57,792 nucleotides of DNA from a virus. Positions 2,097-49,757 of this stretch are shown piece by piece. Both the position numbers and the translations under genes were made by a program. The stretch covers positions 1 to 57,792 of IMG/VR virus record IMGVR_UViG_3300043420_000463; one strand, written 5' to 3'. The notes under the pieces were generated by a model. The model was not told where the DNA came from. It made no database searches and saw nothing but the letters and a program-made list of their open reading frames with translations. Within the stretch, counting starts at the first letter, position 1. The number at the start of each line of letters is the position of its first letter.

Positions 2097-2801
2097 ATGG
2101 AAATTGATCTACACAATTTTTTCAGGTTCTACAAACACGAGAACCCCCAACACGCTGCCGCTGTACAGTGGCTAGAAGATAACCTACCAAAAGAATATCT
2201 TGACGACAATTCTGAGTGGGTTAAGATCTTCAGGAAACCAGCACCTGCCGCTGCTGGTGGTATCACAAACCCTCTCAAGGTTCCCTACTACCCACAGACA
2301 GATAACTACACTAACGCCGAGCGTACATGTAACTCATCTTCCTGTGCTATGTGCCTAGAGTATTTCAAACCAGGAACACTACCTGCTGGTCCTAAGGGAG
2401 ATGATGCTTATGTCAAGGAAGTATTTAAAATCGGTGACACTACAGACCATGCTGTTCAGACTAAAGTTCTAGAAAAGTTTGGTGTTAAATCACACTTCTC
2501 ATACAACCTATCATTTGCTGATCTCGATAAGCAACTTGCTGCTGGTAGACCAGTAGTAATCGGTATCCTCCACAGAGGTCCTCTTAGTGCTCCTAAGGGC
2601 GGTCACATGTGTGTAGTCATCGGCAAGAAGGGTGAAGACTACATCGTTAACGATCCTTATGGTGATCTAAACGATGGTTACTCATCGGATGTTATGAATG
2701 GTAAGGGTGCTGTGTACAAGAAGTCACACCTTGCTAAGCGTTGGAACCCAGCAGGTAACGATGGTTGGGGTCGTATCTTCGATCAACCACTCCCAAAGTA
2801 G
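2097..2801 (+). CDS. C39-type papain-like peptidase (virion-associated)
   Basis: A 234-residue product with the order of catalytic elements of the C39/papain-like superfamily: Cys78 in RTCNSSSCAMCLEYF, His170 in KGGHMCVVIGKK, and Asn185-Asp186 in IVNDPYGD. The first 50 residues are a helical extension before an Ala-rich linker. The role is probably peptide or peptidoglycan cross-bridge cleavage during entry or lysis. The frame ends at TAG 2799-2801, directly after a C_CCA_AAG heptamer. A -1 slip there continues through a linker into the GH24 lysozyme frame and gives a 418-residue two-domain protein (see 2792-2830). A late-type box lies upstream. Confidence 0.85.
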   Translation: MEIDLHNFFRFYKHENPQHAAAVQWLEDNLPKEYLDDNSEWVKIFRKPAPAAAGGITNPLKVPYYPQTDNYTNAERTCNSSSCAMCLEYFKPGTLPAGPKGDDAYVKEVFKIGDTTDHAVQTKVLEKFGVKSHFSYNLSFADLDKQLAAGRPVVIGILHRGPLSAPKGGHMCVVIGKKGEDYIVNDPYGDLNDGYSSDVMNGKGAVYKKSHLAKRWNPAGNDGWGRIFDQPLPK

Positions 2802-3352
2802 CAAGCGGCAGTGGCCCTGCTGCTGCCGCTGAACCTACCGCTCCTGCCCCTGCTTGGGGTGCTGGCGGCGGTGCTAAGACTCCACCCGACGAGGCACCCC
2901 CTGTTGGTTTGAAGTTAATCAAGGAATTTGAAGGTTGTCATTTGGAGGCTTACCCTGACCCTCTTTCAGGAGGACCCCCAATCACAATTGGATGGGGGTC
3001 CACAAGAGACAAAAACGGAAACCCCTTCAAATTGGGAGACAAAATTAGCCAAGATGAGGCAGATGCCTTACTCGTGGACCAATGCCGTAAGCAGTTTATA
3101 CCTTCGCTGCGTAAAATTCCATTTTGGGACGAAATGAGTGATGGACAAAGAGGCGCTTTGCTCAGCTTCGCTTATAATCTTGGGGCTGGTTTCTACGGTG
3201 GTTCTAACTTTAATACTATTACTAAACGCTTGAAGAATAAGGAGTGGGACTTAGTGCCCGAAGCATTATTCCTCTATCGTAATCCTGGTAGTCATGTTGA
3301 AGCAGGTCTTGCCCGCCGCCGTAAGGCAGAGGGCGAACTTTGGAAGTCTTGA
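2765..3352 (+). CDS. GH24 (T4-type) lysozyme domain, probably made as a -1 frameshift fusion
   Basis: The frame encodes a phage GH24 muramidase that cleaves the MurNAc-GlcNAc bond of peptidoglycan. Its start LIKEFEG is followed by the catalytic pattern Glu-x8-Asp-x8-Thr (E in FEG, D in YPDP, T in TIGWG) and the helical GALLSFAYNLG and GLARRRKAEGELW segments. There is no ATG upstream of the domain. The only in-frame starts are a TTG at 2765 inside the peptidase gene and a TTG with no Shine-Dalgarno next to the domain. About 40 residues of Ala/Pro/Gly linker precede the domain. Expression by -1 frameshift from the C39 gene (184 residues added after Lys234) is therefore the preferred model; a sequencing indel is the alternative. 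Confidence 0.85.
   Translation: MGSYLRSTTPKVASGSGPAAAAEPTAPAPAWGAGGGAKTPPDEAPPVGLKLIKEFEGCHLEAYPDPLSGGPPITIGWGSTRDKNGNPFKLGDKISQDEADALLVDQCRKQFIPSLRKIPFWDEMSDGQRGALLSFAYNLGAGFYGGSNFNTITKRLKNKEWDLVPEALFLYRNPGSHVEAGLARRRKAEGELWKS
2792..2830 (+). promoter_or_regulatory. Candidate programmed -1 ribosomal frameshift signal
   Basis: The heptamer CCCAAAG (2792-2798) lies in the C39 peptidase frame as C_CCA_AAG, the X_XXY_YYZ arrangement for simultaneous -1 slippage, with the zero-frame stop TAG immediately after. Five bases later a perfect 8-bp stem (2804-2811 with 2823-2830) begins; two G-U pairs and one G-C can extend it to 11 bp with a 5-base loop. The -1 frame is open from here to 3349 and encodes the lysozyme domain. 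Confidence 0.7.
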
Positions 3353-3509: not shown

Positions 3510-4193
3510 ATGCCAAACACATTTACAATTGTAGCGGCTTCTCTAGTAGGAATCGCTGCACCGACTACGGCACTACTGCCGTTTCAGAATTATAAGATGG
3601 ATGGTCCACCGCCACCAGTAATTGTTGGAAAAGATCTTCTCCCCTCTTATAAACCATTCTCTATCATTAGAGAATTTGAATCTGGAAAGACAGCAACCAA
3701 AGAAGTTGCAGAACCTAAGCCTAAAGAGAAGAGGCTTATTTGTAAAGGGTGTAATGAAAATGAAAATACCGCCCTGGCATTTTTCCAGGATCAAGGTATT
3801 CGAGATAGAAACGCCCTAGCTACTATCCTAGGAAATATCAAGCAGGAAAGTAATTTCCATGCTAATATTTGTGAGGGTGGTAGTAGGATCAATTATCATT
3901 CCTGCCGTTGGGGAGGTTATGGTTTGATCCAATGGACATCTACTAATCGTTATTATGGATTGGGTGACTTTGCTAAGAAGTATGGTGGTAATCCATCAGC
4001 ACTTCATACACAACTTCGTTATCTAACAAATGAAGTTCAATGGCAACGTATCGAAGACCGTTTGAAAACTCCTGGCAAGTCTATCGATCGTTACATGAAC
4101 TATGCTTATAGTTGGATTGGTTGGGGCATTCATGGTGCTCGTACACATTATGCCTATGATTATGCTCGACGAATGATTACAGTAGAGGTTTAA
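3510..4193 (+). CDS. Phage tail lysozyme family protein with N-terminal hydrophobic segment
   Basis: A 227-residue product. Residues 85-225 match the phage tail lysozyme family: NALATILGNIKQESNFHAN with the Glu expected to be catalytic, then GGYGLIQWTS and a C-terminal helical part. A related domain occurs at the C-terminus of the 36095-39226 product. Residues 1-25 form a hydrophobic stretch that may be a signal or anchor, and residues 30-80 are Pro/Lys-rich. ATG 3510 is used because the upstream in-frame extension (from 3426) has no coding character. Role: peptidoglycan cleavage at entry or lysis, next to a second lysozyme gene. An adjacent hairpin (4207-4228) follows the gene. Confidence 0.8.
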   Translation: MPNTFTIVAASLVGIAAPTTALLPFQNYKMDGPPPPVIVGKDLLPSYKPFSIIREFESGKTATKEVAEPKPKEKRLICKGCNENENTALAFFQDQGIRDRNALATILGNIKQESNFHANICEGGSRINYHSCRWGGYGLIQWTSTNRYYGLGDFAKKYGGNPSALHTQLRYLTNEVQWQRIEDRLKTPGKSIDRYMNYAYSWIGWGIHGARTHYAYDYARRMITVEV

Positions 4194-4229: not shown

Positions 4230-4733
4230 ATGTTAAATTTTCATATTGGTAAGAAGAAAACTAGTTTAAAAGACATGATGATTGTGTCTGCTATACTAGC
4301 AATAGTTGTGGGTGGTATAGCATCGTTCACAAATTTACCAAAACAAAAGGTCTGGTGTGCTATAGATCAGTTGACCAGACGACTAAATAATGATACACTT
4401 GAAGACGTAAAATTAAAGATTAATGAGATCATTGCTTGTAGAGCACAAGAAGCAATAGATAAAGGTGAAAAAGATTTCAAAAAATATTATGAAATCATCA
4501 CTGGTAAACGCTGGAAACCTGTAGAGATTACACCACCGCTTTACTCGGAGCAACCGATTGACGAGAAGGTGTGCTATACTGGTCCATGTCAAGACCTCGG
4601 AGGACAGATGAGACTGTGCTCTCAGTGGGTCGAAGGGTGTGAGGGAACCCCTGTTGAGTATGAAGAACTGTCACTACCAGATCTGAAGCTTGACAAACCT
4701 ACCAAACCAATGGTAGAATTCTTCAAGTTCTGA
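4230..4733 (+). CDS. Membrane-anchored protein, unknown function
   Basis: A 167-residue protein that I do not recognise. Residues 16-35 form one transmembrane segment (MMIVSAILAIVVGGIASF); the N-terminus is basic, so the long C-terminal part probably faces the periplasm. That part has six Cys, several in a short stretch (CYTGPCQDLGG...CSQW...CEG), which could form disulphides. There is no Shine-Dalgarno at 4230, which lies directly behind a hairpin; ATG 4275 is an alternative start but would leave only the transmembrane helix at the N-terminus. It follows two lysozyme genes, so a lysis-related role is possible but unproven. Its stop shares two bases with the Arg tRNA. Confidence 0.7.
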   Translation: MLNFHIGKKKTSLKDMMIVSAILAIVVGGIASFTNLPKQKVWCAIDQLTRRLNNDTLEDVKLKINEIIACRAQEAIDKGEKDFKKYYEIITGKRWKPVEITPPLYSEQPIDEKVCYTGPCQDLGGQMRLCSQWVEGCEGTPVEYEELSLPDLKLDKPTKPMVEFFKF

Positions 4734-4805
4734 CTCAGTAGCTCAGTTGGATAGAGCATCTGCCTTCTAAGCAGTTGGTCGGGGGTTCAAGTCCCTCCTG
4801 AGTCG
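4732..4805 (+). tRNA. tRNA-Arg(TCT)
   Basis: A full cloverleaf: acceptor GACTCAG with CTGAGTC, D-arm, anticodon loop CTTCTAA (anticodon TCT, reads AGA/AGG), T-loop TTCAAGT, discriminator G. CCA is not encoded. A perfect 12-base palindrome, GGAGTATACTCC (4809-4820), follows. Confidence 0.95.
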
Positions 4806-4843
4806 CTTGGAGTATACTCCATACTATTCTTTTGGTTATTACT

Positions 4844-5011
4844 ATGTCTCTAATTTCTCAAAAAGATCGAGAAGTTGCTATTGCTGCTCTTGAAAACTAT
4901 CTAATGAAGTTGAGAACTGAAAATCAGTTTGATGATCCTCAAATTATGGAAGCAAATGCTCTATTAAATTGGGTAAAACTTGAATATCAAAAGAATCATA
5001 TTCCACAATAG
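4844..5011 (+). CDS. Small helical protein of 55 residues, ends inside tRNA-Asn
   Basis: Not recognised. It starts MSLISQKDREVAIAALENYL and ends YQKNHIPQ; it is charged, predicted helical and has good coding character. It lies between two tRNA genes with no other gene in the gap. Its TAG stop (5009-5011) is formed by nucleotides 8-10 of the tRNA-Asn gene, so the last three codons and the acceptor strand share bases. No membrane segment or enzyme motif is visible. Confidence 0.7.
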   Translation: MSLISQKDREVAIAALENYLMKLRTENQFDDPQIMEANALLNWVKLEYQKNHIPQ

Positions 5012-5073
5012 CTCAGCGGTAGAGCCATCGACTGTTAATCGATTGGTCCCTGGTTCGAATCCAGGTTGTGGAG
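5002..5073 (+). tRNA. tRNA-Asn(GTT)
   Basis: Acceptor TCCACAA pairs perfectly with TTGTGGA; anticodon loop CTGTTAA gives GTT; T-arm CCTGG-TTCGAAT-CCAGG; discriminator G as usual for Asn. CCA is not encoded. Its first ten bases overlap the small gene upstream. Confidence 0.95.
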
Positions 5074-5088
5074 TTGTTGTTAGATGTT

Positions 5089-5724
5089 ATGTCGGAAATC
5101 ATTCCTTTATTTGCCACTCCCCTATACAAAGCACATATAGAAATACCAATCGATGTTTCTGTAGCGTGTAAGAGTGAAAAATATTACAGAAATACTTCTA
5201 ACAACGGATGGATGACTACAAAAAACATTCATCACGAATCAGATTATTTTCCTTTAATGAAAATAATTGATTCACATGTACAAGAATATGCTTATAACTT
5301 TTTAGAAATATCTGAAGAGACTAAGTTTTCTTGTTGTGGCTCGTGGATTAATTTACATGCTAATGTAGAAAATAAAATTGATTGGGCACCAGAGCACTGG
5401 CATCCCAATTCAATGATTAGTGGTGTTGTTTACTTGGATGCTCCCCCAGGATCTGGTGGAATTAAATTTCATTGTAATCAACACCGAACCCATTTGTTTG
5501 GATCATTCTTTGATTTAAAATTTTCTAAAAAGAATAGATTTAATACCTATGATTTGACAATTCCAGTACAAACTGGTATGATTGTTTTGTTTCCATCCAC
5601 ACTAATTCACTCGGTCCCTCCTAACACAAGATCAATTAAACGATATAGTTTTGCTTTTGATTATATTCCTGTTGGAGTTATGGATACGAGTTTAAATCAA
5701 TTAACAATATCAACGGGCGATTAA
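5089..5724 (+). CDS. 2-oxoglutarate/Fe(II)-dependent oxygenase
   Basis: A 211-residue product of the phage 2OG-Fe(II) oxygenase group. The iron and 2-oxoglutarate site is visible as EHWHPNSMISGVVYL (first His, then Asn/Ser and the strand), the distal His in FPSTLIHSVPPN and the Arg/Lys-rich KRYSFAFDY strand. Such enzymes hydroxylate or demethylate proteins, nucleic acids or small molecules; the substrate cannot be read from sequence. ATG 5089 is used because an earlier in-frame ATG (5068) lies inside tRNA-Asn. The TAA stop (5722-5724) is nucleotides 8-10 of tRNA-Val. It is one of four 2OG oxygenases in the window, all beside tRNA genes. Confidence 0.83.
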   Translation: MSEIIPLFATPLYKAHIEIPIDVSVACKSEKYYRNTSNNGWMTTKNIHHESDYFPLMKIIDSHVQEYAYNFLEISEETKFSCCGSWINLHANVENKIDWAPEHWHPNSMISGVVYLDAPPGSGGIKFHCNQHRTHLFGSFFDLKFSKKNRFNTYDLTIPVQTGMIVLFPSTLIHSVPPNTRSIKRYSFAFDYIPVGVMDTSLNQLTISTGD

Positions 5725-5786
5725 CTCAGCGGTAGAGTGGCTGCCTTACAAGCAGTAAGTCATTGGTTCGAATCCGATATTGCCCA
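5715..5786 (+). tRNA. tRNA-Val(TAC)
   Basis: Acceptor GGGCGAT with ATTGCCC (one G-U), anticodon loop CTTACAA (TAC), T-arm ATTGG-TTCGAAT-CCGAT, discriminator A. The first ten bases overlap the end of the oxygenase gene. Confidence 0.94.
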
Positions 5787-5805
5787 TAGTTATCAACTAA
5801 TATTA

Positions 5806-6339
5806 ATGTATAACGTTATCGATAACTTCCTAACTCCATCGGAAGCTCACAGAATCGAAAGCTTTCTTTTTTCATTAAATTTTCCTTGGTTCTATGGTGA
5901 TCGAGTTGTAAGTGATAGTGATATTTCTAATATAGAGTGTTCGGAAATTGATAATTATCAGTTATCTCATCTATTTTATAGAAATTATACTTTTACGGGT
6001 CAATTTCATAATATATTAGATCCAATAATTAAAAAACTGGAAGCAGAATCTTTGGTTAAGATTAAAGCAAACTTGAATCCAAGAACAGAAACAATAGTTA
6101 AACATGGGTATCATAGAGATCTTCCGATAGATTGTCTGACAGCAGTGTATTATGTAAATACAAATAATGGTTACACTGAGTTTAAGACTGGGGATAGAAT
6201 TGAAAGTATAAGTGGAAGACTTTTAGTTTTCAATTCATCTGAATATCATACAGGATCTACCTGTACTGATAAAAGTGCTAGGTCTGTAATTAATTTAAAT
6301 TTCTTTTCTAGTAAACTGGAAAAAGAATTAGTCAAATAA
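5806..6339 (+). CDS. 2-oxoglutarate/Fe(II)-dependent oxygenase (prolyl-hydroxylase-like)
   Basis: A 177-residue product with the complete site of the prolyl-4-hydroxylase-like branch: His-x-Asp in GYHRDLP, distal His in SSEYHTGS and the 2OG-binding Arg in SARSVINLNFF. The strand TAVYYVNTNNGYTEF lies between them, as in the family. It starts MYNVIDNFLTPSEAHRIE, the usual N-terminus; the earlier in-frame start lies inside tRNA-Val. Substrate unknown. It belongs to a different subgroup from the 5089-5724 enzyme, so the pair is not a recent duplication. Confidence 0.83.
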   Translation: MYNVIDNFLTPSEAHRIESFLFSLNFPWFYGDRVVSDSDISNIECSEIDNYQLSHLFYRNYTFTGQFHNILDPIIKKLEAESLVKIKANLNPRTETIVKHGYHRDLPIDCLTAVYYVNTNNGYTEFKTGDRIESISGRLLVFNSSEYHTGSTCTDKSARSVINLNFFSSKLEKELVK

Positions 6340-6359
6340 TTTTTAATTGATACATATAC

Positions 6360-6584
6360 ATGGAAGAATTCATTAAACAACTAGATAAGATTGAAGGAAT
6401 GTTAGAAAATGTTAGTCATCAGATGCAAGAATTGCGGGAAGCAATTAGAGGGGCACCCAACGAAAACAAGGAGTTGCCAGTGCGAGAATTTTACGAGCAT
6501 CCGTGGTACAAATATAAGCGGGAACAACTTATCGCTAGTGGAAATTATCAGCAACCCGAAGGAGAAGAAACTTCCGCTGCTTAG
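6360..6584 (+). CDS. Small helical/coiled-coil protein, overlapping another gene
   Basis: A 74-residue protein, not recognised. Residues 1-30 form an amphipathic helix (MEEFIKQLDKIEGMLENVSH), followed by EFYEHPWYKYKREQL and an acidic end. Composition and helix pattern look like a real gene. From 6409 on it shares 176 bases with the zinc-ribbon gene in the +1 frame, far more than the usual few-base overlaps here. Either both are translated or one is spurious; the first 49 bases are coding only in this frame. Confidence 0.6.
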   Translation: MEEFIKQLDKIEGMLENVSHQMQELREAIRGAPNENKELPVREFYEHPWYKYKREQLIASGNYQQPEGEETSAA

Positions 6585-6657
6585 TAGACAGGACATGGAG
6601 TTTCAGGAGCAGAGAAGACAAAGAAAAGTTAAGAAACTTGACTTTGAAATTAAATAA
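6409..6657 (+). CDS. Small zinc-ribbon-like protein (DUF7695-type)
   Basis: An 82-residue protein with a knuckle IRCKNCGKQLEGHPTKT followed by SCQCENF, so four Cys (CxxC and CxC) that could bind zinc, and a basic tail ending RRQRKVKKLDFEIK. From memory this pattern, including the FQEQRRQRKVKKLDF tail, is a conserved cyanophage small-protein family of unknown function. It overlaps the 6360-6584 gene in another frame. The nearest purine-rich segment before ATG is about 12 bases upstream, so initiation is weak or coupled. Confidence 0.7.
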   Translation: MLVIRCKNCGKQLEGHPTKTRSCQCENFTSIRGTNISGNNLSLVEIISNPKEKKLPLLSRQDMEFQEQRRQRKVKKLDFEIK

Positions 6658-6717
6658 TCTCTTAAGGTTTTAAATAGTACTAGCGTGTTAGAATACGCTC
6701 ATACATCGGGAGATCAA

Positions 6718-6930
6718 ATGGAACACGATCCTAAGCACCTCAAGCGTAAAGACGCTTTCAATCTATTTTATGAGAGTGTGCTGAAACCAGACCACGAACT
6801 TAGACAGGTGGCCCACGAAACATTATGCTATAATGAATTGATGGAGTGGCGAGACGAGATTCTTGGTTACCTAGATAAGAGAAGAGTTGAAGAGTTTTAT
6901 GGATGGGGTTCTACTGGCGGTTACGATTAA
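6718..6930 (+). CDS. Small hypothetical protein
   Basis: A 70-residue, charged and probably all-helical protein (MEHDPKHLKRKDAFNLFYES...), not recognised. ATG 6718 is preferred because GGGAG lies six bases before it, whereas the upstream in-frame extension has no such site. No membrane segment. Confidence 0.65.
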   Translation: MEHDPKHLKRKDAFNLFYESVLKPDHELRQVAHETLCYNELMEWRDEILGYLDKRRVEEFYGWGSTGGYD

Positions 6931-6967
6931 ACCGTTCTCACATTTCCTTGCCACTCATACGTGGATC

Positions 6968-7057
6968 ATGATAGTAACTGGGGGGTTTATATGTGCTCCC
7001 CTATTCTTTTTCTGTTTGGATAGTCTAGAACATCCAGACAGATACAAACACAAATAA
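6968..7057 (+). CDS. Possible 29-residue hydrophobic micro-protein
   Basis: A short frame MIVTGGFICAPLFFFCLDSL... fits exactly between the gene ending at 6930 and tRNA-Pro at 7058. It has one hydrophobic stretch that could span a membrane. Length and the absence of a clear ribosome site make this uncertain; the rest of 6931-7057 shows nothing else. Confidence 0.3.
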   Translation: MIVTGGFICAPLFFFCLDSLEHPDRYKHK

Positions 7058-7131
7058 CGGGGTGTAGCTCAGTTTGGTAGAGCACTCGCTTTGGGAGCGA
7101 GGGGCCGTAGGTTCGAATCCTATCACCCCGA
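7058..7131 (+). tRNA. tRNA-Pro(TGG)
   Basis: Acceptor CGGGGTG with CACCCCG, anticodon arm CTCGC-TTTGGGA-GCGAG (anticodon TGG), T-arm GTAGG-TTCGAAT-CCTAT, discriminator A. A perfect inverted repeat TTGGATA-CT-TATCCAA follows directly at 7132-7147. Confidence 0.95.
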
Positions 7132-7150
7132 TTGGATACTTATCCAAAAA

Positions 7151-7158
7151 AATAAATA
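7151..7158 (+). promoter_or_regulatory. Late-type promoter box
   Basis: AATAAATA, 19 bases before the glutaredoxin start. It matches the T4-late-like boxes elsewhere, though a glutaredoxin would be expected to be early or middle. Confidence 0.35.
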
Positions 7159-7177
7159 TTATTTTACCGATTAAGAA

Positions 7178-7423
7178 ATGACATTCACTGTTTATTCAAA
7201 ACAAGGTTGTCCATATTGTGAGAGAATCAAGTTGTTATTTGAACTAAACGAATTCAAGTTTGTAGAATATCAATTAGATAGAGATTTCAGTAGAGATGAA
7301 TTCTATGCTGAATTTGGTGAGGGAACTACATTCCCACAGGTTATCATGGGAGACAGTCCTCTTGGTGGATGTACAGAAACAATTAAATATCTACAGGAAA
7401 AAGATATCTGCTGTAATGTATGA
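7178..7423 (+). CDS. Glutaredoxin
   Basis: An 81-residue glutaredoxin with the dithiol active site CPYC at residues 11-14 (KQGCPYCERIK), the cis-Pro motif TTFPQVI and the GGCTETI glutathione-binding end. It reduces disulphides with glutathione, for example in ribonucleotide reductase or host redox proteins. It overlaps the next gene by ATGA. A second glutaredoxin-like gene lies at 22593. Confidence 0.9.
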   Translation: MTFTVYSKQGCPYCERIKLLFELNEFKFVEYQLDRDFSRDEFYAEFGEGTTFPQVIMGDSPLGGCTETIKYLQEKDICCNV

Positions 7424-7611
7424 CTGAAGTAACAGAAAAAGAATTCGAAGATAACTTTGATCAGTACATGGATCGTATTGAGAAGGGTGAAGAGTTTCTT
7501 ATCAGACTTCCTGATGGTCGTGCTGTTGCTGCTGTGCCAGTTGACGAAGAGATCCAAAAGATACTTGACATCATGCCCAACATAGAGTATGATGACGAAG
7601 TTGATTTCTAA
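7420..7611 (+). CDS. Phd/YefM-like antitoxin-family protein without a toxin
   Basis: A 63-residue protein resembling the Phd/YefM antitoxin N-terminal fold: VTEKEFEDNFDQYMDRIEKGEEFLI, then the short strand pair LPDGRAVAAVPV, and an acidic tail. In toxin-antitoxin loci this domain binds DNA and represses the operon. No Doc, RelE or PIN-type toxin lies nearby, so it may neutralise a host toxin or serve as a small regulator; both are inference. ATGA overlap with glutaredoxin. Confidence 0.65.
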   Translation: MTEVTEKEFEDNFDQYMDRIEKGEEFLIRLPDGRAVAAVPVDEEIQKILDIMPNIEYDDEVDF

Positions 7612-7616
7612 ACCTG

Positions 7617-7850
7617 ATGAAACCTGAAGTTTTACTTGAGCGTTTTCCCTATCGTTATGTTACTATCGGTATGCTAGAAAATGGCAAACCCGATTATCGA
7701 ATTCAAAAGTGGCACGACTGGACTAAACGCTATCGTGACATGTATCTTTGTGATAATCAACTCCAGTGTTCCATTGCTATGGAAGACTTTGAATACACTA
7801 AATGGTTAGACCCCGATCCTGAAGTAGGAGCATATCGTAAGTATGATTAG
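7617..7850 (+). CDS. Small hypothetical protein
   Basis: A 77-residue protein rich in aromatic residues (KWHDWTKRYRDMYLC, FEYTKWLDPDPE). Not recognised; no transmembrane segment. It lies five bases after the antitoxin-like gene and overlaps the next gene by eight bases. Confidence 0.65.
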   Translation: MKPEVLLERFPYRYVTIGMLENGKPDYRIQKWHDWTKRYRDMYLCDNQLQCSIAMEDFEYTKWLDPDPEVGAYRKYD

Positions 7851-8127
7851 TTCTAAACTTGCTACAGCAGAAGATGCTGTCCGTGAAGCTTTGATCTATG
7901 CCTTAGAGAAAAAGCGTTATAAGAGTGTCCATGACTTGTTTCAACTCTTAGATACTATTGTTACACTAAAAAATAGCAATAATGACTATGTGTTTTCTTT
8001 AAACACTGATAATATTCCTGGTTATCCAGACATGGTTACCAGTCAAGAAACAGTTGATTACCTCAACAATCTAGGTAATATTAAGATTACCAGCACAAAC
8101 ACTGATGATGTAATTTCTTTTGGGTAA
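7843..8127 (+). CDS. Small hypothetical protein
   Basis: A 94-residue acidic protein (MISSKLATAEDAVREALIYA...), N-terminal half helical. Not recognised. Its TAA stop overlaps the next ATG (TAATG), which suggests translational coupling. Confidence 0.65.
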   Translation: MISSKLATAEDAVREALIYALEKKRYKSVHDLFQLLDTIVTLKNSNNDYVFSLNTDNIPGYPDMVTSQETVDYLNNLGNIKITSTNTDDVISFG

Positions 8128-8303
8128 TGAAAAACTTTCGTATCGTAGAAGAACTTGACAACGGCGAAGAAGTAATTACTTATTTCCAAGTCGAAGAATA
8201 TGAAGACGGTTACTACTATGTCTATAATGACACTGAAGTAGGTCCTTTCCCTACTCTAGATGACGCTGTAGAGGGTGCTCAAGCAGATTTAGTACCTGTA
8301 TAG
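8127..8303 (+). CDS. Small acidic hypothetical protein
   Basis: A 58-residue protein (MKNFRIVEELDNGEEVITYF...), strongly acidic, probably a short beta meander (YYYVYNDTEVGPFPTLDDA). It begins within the stop of the gene before. Not recognised. Coding character is good. Confidence 0.65.
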   Translation: MKNFRIVEELDNGEEVITYFQVEEYEDGYYYVYNDTEVGPFPTLDDAVEGAQADLVPV

Positions 8304-8316
8304 TACACGTCTCGGG

Positions 8317-8496
8317 ATGACGCTAAAAGCGCCCTGGTCGGGATGGGTCATCGACCCCTCGGGTTTCCAGTTTTTCCATAAGAACTGGTGGTGCGGATGG
8401 GACTCTCTCCCGCCTGGTTTCCAAGTTCCAGTTAAAAATTTGGTGGTGGATCCAAAAGACCCCTTCCGTGTGGTTGTTTTCCTGTTTAGCATCTGA
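8317..8496 (+). CDS. Possible 59-residue Trp-rich protein in a GC-rich structured stretch
   Basis: The frame starts MTLKAPWSGWVIDPSGFQFF and has six Trp and many Pro and Phe, an unusual but protein-like composition with an internal near-repeat (DPSGFQFF and PPGFQVPV). The stretch 8304-8548 is richer in G and C than its surroundings and full of short inverted repeats, so it could instead be a structured RNA. GGG directly precedes ATG; no proper Shine-Dalgarno is visible. Two minus-strand frames are also open here but read as shadow. Confidence 0.4.
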   Translation: MTLKAPWSGWVIDPSGFQFFHKNWWCGWDSLPPGFQVPVKNLVVDPKDPFRVVVFLFSI

Positions 8497-8548
8497 AATA
8501 ATAAAACAGGTGGCGAGCCTAGCAGGGAGGAGTGACGCCCTCCCACCC

Positions 8549-8619
8549 GCGGGTATGGTGTAGTGGTAACACGTCATCCTTCCAAGTTGAAATCAGGGGT
8601 TCGAATCCCCTTACCCGCT
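8549..8619 (+). tRNA. tRNA-Gly(TCC)
   Basis: Acceptor GCGGGTA with TACCCGC, D-arm GTGT/ACAC, anticodon loop CTTCCAA (TCC), T-arm AGGGG-TTCGAAT-CCCCT. One T-T mismatch in the anticodon stem. CCA is not encoded. A hairpin GGGAGG...CCTCCC lies just upstream. Confidence 0.94.
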
Positions 8620-20191: not shown

Positions 20192-20361
20192 AAATAGGTA
20201 AACAAATGTTAAGGACCTTTAAGGATTCGTTACATTGTTAAACACCCCTTAAACCGAGACCTATAGGGTGTATAAAACACGTCTCTCATATCCCGCCTGA
20301 GGGTGGCGGGAGCATAGTACCTCCACCATTTCCCTGATGGACTTACTACTTGTTTGTAACA
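20192..20361 (+). promoter_or_regulatory. Structured psbA 5' leader
   Basis: This gene-free stretch, together with the divergent promoters at 20047-20191, fills 315 bases between the fibre gene and psbA. It holds two hairpins: ACACCC (20242-20247) with GGGTGT, and CCCGCC with GGCGGG (about 20298-20316). Long structured leaders of psbA may set mRNA stability or light-dependent translation, but no known riboswitch is recognised. Confidence 0.4.
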
Positions 20362-48313: not shown

Positions 48314-48386
48314 GCTCCTTTAGCTATCTGGTGAAAGCAGCGAACTCATAATTCGCCTCAGGTGGGTTCGATCCCCTCAAGGAGCA
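48314..48386 (+). tRNA. tRNA with CAT anticodon (Met, or Ile if modified)
   Basis: Acceptor GCTCCTT with AAGGAGC; anticodon stem GCGAA/TTCGC and loop CTCATAA (CAT); T-loop TTCGATC, one T-T mismatch in the T-stem; discriminator A. Sequence alone does not settle Met versus lysidine-modified Ile. Confidence 0.88.
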
Positions 48387-48390
48387 CCTC

Positions 48391-48462
48391 GGGAGATTAG
48401 CTTAGCGGTAGAGCATTCGACTGATAATCGAAAGGTCGCTGGTTCGATTCCAGCATTTCCCA
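48391..48462 (+). tRNA. tRNA-Ile(GAT)
   Basis: Acceptor GGGAGAT with ATTTCCC (one G-U), anticodon arm TTCGA-CTGATAA-TCGAA (GAT), T-arm GCTGG-TTCGATT-CCAGC, discriminator A. The downstream promoter begins two bases later. Confidence 0.94.
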
Positions 48463-48463
48463 C

Positions 48464-48492
48464 TTGACAGTCTTGGCAGCAAATGCTATGAT
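48464..48492 (+). promoter_or_regulatory. Sigma70-type promoter of tRNA-Leu
   Basis: TTGACA (48464-48469), 17-base spacer, TATGAT (48487-48492), 14 bases before tRNA-Leu. Confidence 0.75.
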
Positions 48493-48505
48493 TGTCTCAT
48501 CACCT

Positions 48506-48589
48506 GGGGAGGTGGTGGAATCGGTAGACACACCAGACTTAAAATCTGTTGGGCATATGCCCGTGGGGGTTCAAGTCCCCCTCTCCCTA
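48506..48589 (+). tRNA. tRNA-Leu(TAA)
   Basis: A class II tRNA of 84 bases: acceptor GGGGAGG with TCTCCCT (two G-U), anticodon loop CTTAAAA (TAA), long variable arm GGGC-ATAT-GCCC, T-arm GGGGG-TTCAAGT-CCCCC, discriminator A. Confidence 0.93.
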
Positions 48590-48594
48590 TTCCA

Positions 48595-48602
48595 CATAAA
48601 TA
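48595..48602 (+). promoter_or_regulatory. Late-type promoter box
   Basis: CATAAATA, 19 bases before the next protein gene, directly after tRNA-Leu. Confidence 0.45.
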
Positions 48603-48621
48603 ATAATGTGTGGAAAACAAC

Positions 48622-48888
48622 ATGAAATATACTCTTTCCCAAGCATATAGATTCTACATGGGTCAAGTTGTAAGAATGTATTTCATTCAAGGCATACCAT
48701 ACACCTTTGATGAACTTCCACAACTTGTACAAGATCATCCATCTGTACAAACTCAAGCATTAGAAGGTCATGATTATGATGATGATGAGCTCTATCAAGC
48801 ATCAAATTATTTGGTGGCAGAAGAGTGTCATCCTTTAATGTTTGAAATTGAAGTAGATAATCCCACCCTATTACCTCAAGATGATTGA
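48622..48888 (+). CDS. Small hypothetical protein before the CpeT gene
   Basis: An 88-residue, acidic and helical protein (MKYTLSQAYRFYMGQVVRMY...). ATG 48622 is preferred to GTG 48610. Not recognised. It overlaps the CpeT-like gene by eight bases, so the two are probably co-translated from the late-type box at 48595. Confidence 0.65.
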   Translation: MKYTLSQAYRFYMGQVVRMYFIQGIPYTFDELPQLVQDHPSVQTQALEGHDYDDDELYQASNYLVAEECHPLMFEIEVDNPTLLPQDD

Positions 48889-49405
48889 AATTTTTCGTGA
48901 ATGGTTAACTGGATCTTTTGAAAACAAAACCCAAGCATTCTCGTATCCTTCTAGATATGCTATGATTAGGGTAACACATATTCCTTTATGGGGTGAGTTT
49001 TTTTATGGTGAGCAAGCATATAGTTATCAATCGAAGAAACCATATCGTCAGTTTGTCTTGTGGCCCACTGTAAATGATAATGGTATCAAAATTTTAAATT
49101 ATGAAATTGAAGCAAAAGAACAGTTTGCTGGTTGTAAAAACCTTGACAAATTGACCAAAGAAATGCTAAGATTGAAAAATGGTTGTGATGTCAACCTTAC
49201 ATTTGATGGAACTTCTTTTAAAGGGGGGTTGACAGGATGTGATTGTTATGTAAAATGGAATGGTAGAGATACATACCTCCAGAATGAGATTGAACTTACT
49301 TCAACTCATTATTATGTGAAAGATCTCGGATTTTGCCAGAAAAATCACCATCAAATTTGGGGATCTAAGTATGGCAGATTCGAATTTAAAAAAATGCCTG
49401 AGTAG
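48881..49405 (+). CDS. cpeT: CpeT/CpcT-type phycobiliprotein lyase
   Basis: A 174-residue T-type bilin lyase: LTGSFENKTQAFSYPSRYAM, HIPLWGEFFYGEQAYSY, KKPYRQFVLW, then GCDVNLTFDGTSFKGGLTGC, YLQNEIELTS and the terminal WGSKYGRFEFKKM. The family attaches phycoerythrobilin or phycocyanobilin to beta-subunit cysteines of phycobiliproteins, so the phage may help keep host antennae working. The presence fits a phycobilisome or phycoerythrin-bearing host. Its TAG stop (49403-49405) is nucleotides 8-10 of tRNA-Thr. Confidence 0.87.
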   Translation: MIEIFREWLTGSFENKTQAFSYPSRYAMIRVTHIPLWGEFFYGEQAYSYQSKKPYRQFVLWPTVNDNGIKILNYEIEAKEQFAGCKNLDKLTKEMLRLKNGCDVNLTFDGTSFKGGLTGCDCYVKWNGRDTYLQNEIELTSTHYYVKDLGFCQKNHHQIWGSKYGRFEFKKMPE

Positions 49406-49469
49406 CTCAGCTGGATAGAGCAACGGTTTTGTAAACCGTAGGTCGTCGGTTCAAGTCCGACCTTAGGCT
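49396..49469 (+). tRNA. tRNA-Thr(TGT)
   Basis: Acceptor GCCTGAG with CTTAGGC (one G-U), anticodon arm ACGGT-TTTGTAA-ACCGT (TGT), T-arm GTCGG-TTCAAGT-CCGAC, discriminator T. The first ten bases overlap the CpeT gene. Confidence 0.94.
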
Positions 49470-49551
49470 TTGGCAGTAATGCCAACTTCTACTACGGGTA
49501 TCTTCCGTAGCGTCGTATGGGAGTGGTTGGAAATGTCCGAATGCTCCCACC
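49470..49551 (+). other. Hairpin-rich spacer between tRNAs
   Basis: No gene. Three hairpins in a row: TGGC-AGTAAT-GCCA (about 49471-49484), CTACGG-GTATCT-TCCGTAG (about 49494-49511) and GGGAG...CTCCC (about 49520-49548). It may guide tRNA processing or be part of a small RNA; nothing known is recognised. Confidence 0.35.
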
Positions 49552-49552
49552 T

Positions 49553-49624
49553 CCTCTGGTAGTCTATTGGTAAGGACAGGTGGACAACACACATGGATAC
49601 TGGGTTCGATTCCCAGACAGAGGA
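49553..49624 (+). tRNA. tRNA-like element with degenerate anticodon arm
   Basis: The acceptor CCTCTGG pairs with ACAGAGG at six of seven positions, the D-stem GTCT/GGAC and T-arm CTGGG-TTCGATT-CCCAG are intact, discriminator A. The anticodon arm cannot fold normally: the best register (49578-49594) has one mismatch, no U33 and an anticodon of CAA by position. Either a decayed tRNA, a non-decoding tRNA mimic or one with an insertion error. Confidence 0.6.
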
Positions 49625-49674
49625 AAAGAACACCCCTCAAGCCTATCAACGATGCTCAAACAGAGGGGTCACTA

Positions 49675-49757
49675 GTCGGTATGGCGGAATTGGTAGACGC
49701 GCTGGGTTTAGGTTCCAGTGTCCTTGCGACGTGGAGGTTCAAGTCCTCTTACCGACA
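49675..49757 (+). tRNA. tRNA-Leu(TAG)
   Basis: A class II tRNA: acceptor GTCGGTA with TACCGAC, anticodon arm CTGGG-TTTAGGT-TCCAG (TAG), variable arm, T-loop TTCAAGT, discriminator A. Confidence 0.93.

Follow-up and report, generated by a model that had tools for sequence, protein, structure and literature searches.

Programmed −1 ribosomal frameshifting of the tandem-slippage type is well known from dnaX, IS elements, and tail chaperones. In tailed phages, the best-known case is that of the tail-assembly chaperones, and the slip site of the lambda tail-assembly genes G/GT is G_GGA_AAG. In −1 frameshift signals, an RNA structure begins some 4–10 nt past the heptamer, whereas an upstream Shine-Dalgarno (SD)-like stimulator is an optional component and does not define them. 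In E. coli, a survey of all 64 heptamers ranked C_CCA_AAG, G_GGA_AAG, and A_AAA_AAG highest in efficiency when a stimulator was present; the top value of that survey, 54%, came from C_CCA_AAG combined with the IS3 pseudoknot (PMC4066793). Endolysins have been described that are produced as two polypeptides from one gene via an internal translation start (PMC9430671; Ms6 LysA, PMC3111421). In these systems, the short form arises from an in-frame internal start and has its C terminus in common with the long form, and the phages infect Gram-positive hosts. A lactococcal phage lysin reported in 1994 as "two overlapping genes" has been cited as a frameshift case (PMC10885494); it is a possible precedent for frameshifting in a lysin encoded in overlapping frames.

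The window analysed here, a stretch of 57,792 nucleotides, derives from a T4-like cyanophage, of which a 24-kb stretch is 78–80% identical to S-RIM32, S-PM2, and S-H9-2 over part of its length. Judging from the sequence, a lysis-type gene in this window very probably contains a programmed −1 ribosomal frameshift that would yield a peptidase together with a peptidase-lysozyme fusion. The name HNFF is given here, from its motif, to the N-terminal domain of about 46 residues. The features concerned are as follows.

2097..2801, + strand: zero-frame gene; product of 234 aa, comprising the N-terminal HNFF domain (~46 aa) and a C39-like papain-fold peptidase
2792-2798, + strand: slippery heptamer C_CCA_AAG in zero-frame phase, directly 5' of the stop; the peptidase ends CTC-CCA-AAG-TAG
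2798..2902, + strand: Ala/Pro/Gly-rich linker in the −1 frame, ~35 residues, the first being a GTA-encoded Val
2799-2801, + strand: zero-frame stop TAG, taking up the first 3 of the 5 nt that separate the heptamer from the stem
2804-2830, + strand: predicted stimulatory hairpin, 12-bp stem (2804-2815/2819-2830) with a 3-nt loop
2903..3352, + strand: GH24 lysozyme domain (PF00959) in the −1 frame, stop TGA at 3350-3352
7058..7131, + strand: phage-encoded tRNA-Pro(UGG), matching the P-site slip codon CCA

The peptidase part matched Peptidase_C39_2 (PF13529) in Pfam with an E value of 3e-14, and its Cys83, His170, and Asp186 were invariant among 36 aligned sequences. A structure model of the peptidase was similar, at modest TM scores, to C39-like peptidases and to further enzymes of the papain fold. 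The lysozyme part matched Phage_lysozyme (PF00959) with an E value of 9.7e-22 over profile positions 1–125 of 125, and the catalytic Glu was residue 45 of the −1 product, located inside a KEFEG motif. The −1 frame contained no stop from 2759 until 3350-3352, and it adds 184 residues after Lys234 to give a trans-frame product of 418 aa. Accordingly, the product lengths of 234 and 418 residues given in the first-pass annotation were confirmed from the reading frames, as was the open −1 frame leading into a complete GH24 domain; the linker, which had been put at 40 residues, was about 35. Since the gene ends with CTC CCA AAG TAG, the heptamer C_CCA_AAG is in phase for tandem −1 slippage and is followed at once by the stop, as had been noted. 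RNA folding also reproduced the reported start of the hairpin 5 nt past the heptamer, with the outer 8 pairs entirely Watson-Crick, whereas the full stem was 12 bp and not 11. Region 2790-2850 folded with an energy of −25.8 kcal/mol, whereas shuffled versions averaged −15.85 (z −3.8), and an equally good value was obtained in 1 of 200 shuffles. An Rfam search matched no known frameshift element at the slip site.

The locus resembles E. coli dnaX (A_AAA_AAG), the IS3-family transposases, and lambda G/GT in the type of the heptamer and its zero-frame phase, the downstream stem at 5–6 nt, and the stop near the site. As in E. coli dnaX, a short and a long product would come from one gene. Those systems encode a polymerase subunit, a transposase, or a tail chaperone; the genes here, by contrast, are peptidoglycan hydrolases, two catalytic domains would be joined by the slip, and the window clade has no SD-like stimulator. 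The internal-start endolysins (PMC9430671, PMC3111421) are similar in that one endolysin locus gives two forms sharing sequence; here, however, the common part would be the N terminus, the reading frame would be switched, and the hosts are cyanobacteria.

We propose that translating ribosomes would meet C_CCA_AAG while the hairpin sits at the mRNA entrance, and that a fraction of them would slip back one base in tandem, from CCA to CCC in the P site and from AAG to AAA in the A site. The slipped ribosomes, now in the −1 frame, would bypass the TAG and read the linker, followed by the GH24 lysozyme. Two products are expected, an HNFF-C39 peptidase of 234 aa and a bifunctional wall hydrolase, HNFF-C39-GH24, of 418 aa. 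Their ratio would be set by the frameshift rate, and the window locus would yield an active lysozyme domain mainly or solely through frameshifting. The slippage, its rate, a fixed ratio of the products, and the synthesis of the 418-aa protein are all predictions from the sequence. The tRNA-Pro(UGG) would decode the slip codon CCA and may be functionally tied to the slip site. A host with only tRNA-Lys(UUU) would favour slippage at AAG; a pattern search for a second tRNA-Lys in cyanobacteria matched only other tRNAs, in Arthrospira.

Peptidase and lysozyme relatives were gathered from IMG/VR and annotated phages and classed by script; all counts refer to distinct sequences, which are related and are hence not independent events. 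Among the C39 relatives, 82 had GH24 in the −1 frame and lacked a start at the stop codon, and every one of these (82/82) carried an in-phase XXXYYYZ heptamer 0–2 codons ahead of the stop, whereas such a heptamer was found near the gene end in 0/105 relatives in which GH24 was separate, far away, or absent. In another 15 relatives, a start codon, mostly as ATGA or GTGA, lay at or overlapped the peptidase stop, with the heptamer kept in 9/15 and missing in 6/15. A further 14 relatives, including ACG-2014f, were in-frame fusions. Peptidase relatives in cellular genomes were few (5 loci). Over all −1 loci, including those of the second system described below, the heptamers were A_AAA_AAG (79), G_GGA_AAG (23), C_CCA_AAG (8), T_TTT_TTT (3, the S-CAM7 group), and A_AAA_AAA (1). 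At the A_AAA_AAG sites, the Lys-Lys pair was encoded as AAA-AAG in 71/71 cases, compared with 10/55 elsewhere in the same genes, and the preceding codon ended in A in 71/71, compared with 31% of the Ala/Val codons elsewhere. This codon bias is a constraint on nucleotides and not on amino acids. An SD-like stimulator upstream was present at 8/71 A_AAA_AAG loci and at 0/8 C_CCA_AAG loci, the latter being the window clade.

The hairpin was likewise conserved. In all CCC/GGG-type loci (31/31), the stem started about 5–6 nt past the heptamer, and the median spacer in the relatives was 5–6 nt. At this position, the A_AAA_AAG loci had stems that were unrelated in sequence, among them AACGCCAACTAA/TTAGTTGGCGTT and TCAACACCAC/GTGGTGTTGA. 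The median z of downstream folding was −3.7 in the class with no start and −3.2 in the class with a possible downstream start, against −0.17 in the ATGA/GTGA class. In a permutation test, the 5' arm of each stem was paired with its own downstream region or with arms swapped among the loci (5000 permutations). Own-arm pairing gave −16.2 kcal/mol against −9.8 kcal/mol after permutation in the A_AAA_AAG group and −20.0 against −17.3 kcal/mol in the CCC/GGG group, in both cases with 0/5000 permutations as good, the loci being related to one another. No advantage of own-arm pairing was seen in the overlapping-start class, where 2047/5000 permutations were as good. The difference among the stem sequences and the behaviour of this control class speak against mere relatedness as the cause of the arm pairing. 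These class values and permutations indicate that the stem and the slip site occur together and that the stem is absent where ATGA/GTGA coupling is available. The first-pass annotation had looked to relatives for a heptamer and stem maintained between variable flanks; this is what we found, and the pair was not kept in relatives whose GH24 was self-started or absent.

Of the alternatives, the one that survives best is that GH24 is made separately from a start in the −1 frame, perhaps by ribosomes terminated at 2799, although we regard it as highly unlikely. In its favour, 15 relatives do have an ATGA/GTGA-type start at or near the peptidase stop; however, these loci have no hairpin, and 6 of them also lack the heptamer. 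In the window, the earlier claim that the lysozyme lacks a usable start of its own stood in so far as no ATG or GTG was found in the −1 frame ahead of the catalytic Glu, but two TTG codons exist, one upstream of the slip site (2765) and the other at the edge of the GH24 domain (2909). Neither TTG is conserved or has a well-placed SD sequence at a suitable spacing, and the upstream one is missing in the relative L016. A possible start, mostly TTG, was located between the slip site and the catalytic Glu in somewhat less than half of the −1 loci, whereas 45/82 had no ATG, GTG, or TTG at all in the −1 frame ahead of this residue. Furthermore, initiation leaves the conserved XXXYYYZ heptamers unexplained.

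Programmed frameshifting is also suggested by a second arrangement lacking the C39 peptidase. In a lineage with separate genes, GH24 has its own copy of the HNFF domain seen at the peptidase start. At 23 distinct loci (L202, L209, L213, L226, and others up to L309), this HNFF-GH24 gene is itself split: a protein of about 70 residues, consisting of the HNFF domain, a linker, and a CPHCGK-S/P-LGK tail, ends with G_GGA_AAG and a TAA or TAG stop, past which lie a stem and the −1-frame GH24. The slip region (CTGGGAAAGTAA..AGCGGCAGTGG) resembles its window counterpart (CTCCCAAAGTAG..AGCGGCAGTGG), as though the XXX triplet had been swapped as a whole between GGG and CCC with YYYZ unchanged. Loci of the second system often have ATG-ATG at the GH24 start, about 60 nt downstream, and a separate GH24 start is consequently less excluded there.

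The frame break is present in cultured phages as well. S-PM2 has GCA AAA AAG TAA with GH24 in the −1 frame, and its annotated "putative lysin" (L006 2460-2678) begins 228 nt inside the GH24 domain, without the catalytic Glu. The annotated "lysin" of S-CAM7 (L010 2445-2717) is truncated likewise and begins inside the domain, and in neither phage does the lysin frame offer a start codon upstream, before the catalytic Glu. The T8 run in S-CAM7, together with the A6–A7 runs in the A_AAA_AAG relatives, raises another explanation, namely transcriptional slippage on a homopolymer run, by which some mRNAs with one extra base would join the frames; the A9 run of Thermus dnaX provides a precedent (PMC1088944). 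It may operate in the T8-run S-CAM7 group. As an account of the window, we consider it very improbable: no run longer than 3 occurs at the window junction, neither the CCC-AAA of the window nor the GGG-AAA of the second system is prone to such slippage, and an A6 run is shorter than the A9 of Thermus dnaX. Moreover, transcriptional slippage predicts no selection for the codon phase, the final G, or a hairpin at 5–6 nt.

The ribosomal frameshifting proposed at A_AAA_AAG is mirrored in two in-frame relatives close to frameshift-type phages (L061 and L149), whose junction, GTA (or ATA) AAA AAA GTA GAA, has one A more than the frameshift-type sites and encodes V/I-K-K-V-E in one frame, the residues predicted from a −1 slip at GTA AAA AAG TAG AA. 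Structure prediction of the L061 fusion gave a mean pLDDT of 41.7, too low for interpretation. The 14 in-frame fusion loci, including ACG-2014f, could also be taken to mean that a single gene has been broken into two frames by an indel, through sequencing error or decay. The chance of this is negligible in our estimation, given that dozens of distinct contigs, as well as the cultured S-PM2 and S-CAM7, share the break at the same position, and that the heptamer phase and the covarying stem are conserved. Purifying selection, moreover, acts on the peptidase as well as on the −1-frame GH24 among window-like phages, with dN of about 0.01–0.10 and dS of about 0.4–1.4. Stop-codon readthrough was ruled out, as the lysozyme is not encoded in the zero frame past TAG.

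In a tree of 202 peptidases, 21 changes were needed to account for the frameshift state, at least 12 of which were forced by supported branches, indicating that this state was repeatedly gained or lost. The window peptidase clade was placed among peptidases without GH24, whereas the window GH24 was near the lineage in which this enzyme carries an N-terminal domain of its own (81% identity to DSL-LC03). The kinship of the two parts thus differs, which suggests that the window gene is a new pairing of peptidase and GH24 lineages. We consider it likely that these loci represent a widespread cyanophage recoding module, repeatedly gained and lost, that uses −1 frameshifting to attach GH24 to the HNFF module, occurs in two or more architectures (with the C39 peptidase or the short CPHCGK tail), and over evolutionary time alternates with ATGA coupling, fusion in frame, and loss of the gene, the ratio of the two wall hydrolases being the selected quantity.

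GH24 enzymes cleave glycan strands. A division of labour in lysis is conceivable, in which the peptidase would cut peptide bonds and GH24 the glycan. The most likely role suggested by the domains is that of a bifunctional endolysin accompanied by surplus peptidase, with slippage setting their ratio. Immediately 3' of the frameshift gene, at 3510-4190 of the window, lies a second lysozyme-like gene (PF18013, phage tail lysozyme); because of this gene, the frameshift products may alternatively have a structural role.

The proposed frameshift is thus of a known kind; what appears to be new is that it would set the ratio of two wall hydrolases. The first-pass annotation knew of no frameshift joining two cell-wall hydrolases, and we met none in the searchable papers. 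A literature search found no lysozyme or endolysin frameshift in cyanophages, and no mention of an endolysin or lysozyme was found in the accessible part of a recoding review (PMC5009743). Among protein families, phrog_3617 (405 positions) spans both parts of the window gene from end to end, like the in-frame fusion of ACG-2014f, and phrog_10051 matches the peptidase, which lies there at the C-terminal end; both are profiles of single-frame genes and do not describe the frameshift arrangement. Frameshifting seems to control wall hydrolases in abundant marine and freshwater cyanobacterial viruses, the model phage S-PM2 included. The family samples frameshift, start-stop overlap, fusion, separate genes, and loss among close relatives and so offers a natural experiment on the reasons a phage may have for fixing a hydrolase ratio. 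Its covarying stems and several heptamers form a test set for the rules of −1 frameshifting outside E. coli.

Two further frame breaks were set aside from the frameshift set. In S-CRM01 (L366, NC_015569.1; 1327-2636), GH24 is broken inside the domain, and the other frame leads to an L,D-transpeptidase (YkuD) domain; with no clear heptamer, this break may be a sequencing error or another recoding event. In S-CBP4 (L365, KC310804; 1474-2459), an unannotated C39 peptidase is split over two frames inside the domain, with no clear heptamer at the break, and the downstream frame continues into a further C-terminal region.

The window also contains eleven tRNA genes in two clusters (4732-8619 and 48314-49757), of which tRNA-Pro(UGG) and tRNA-Gly(UCC) could read the P-site codons of C_CCA_AAG and G_GGA_AAG sites. 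Rfam matches elsewhere in the window were wcaG RNA, PhotoRC-II RNA, and abiF RNA (8359-8457, 20230-20325, and 49633-49669), the abiF match being situated between tRNA genes.
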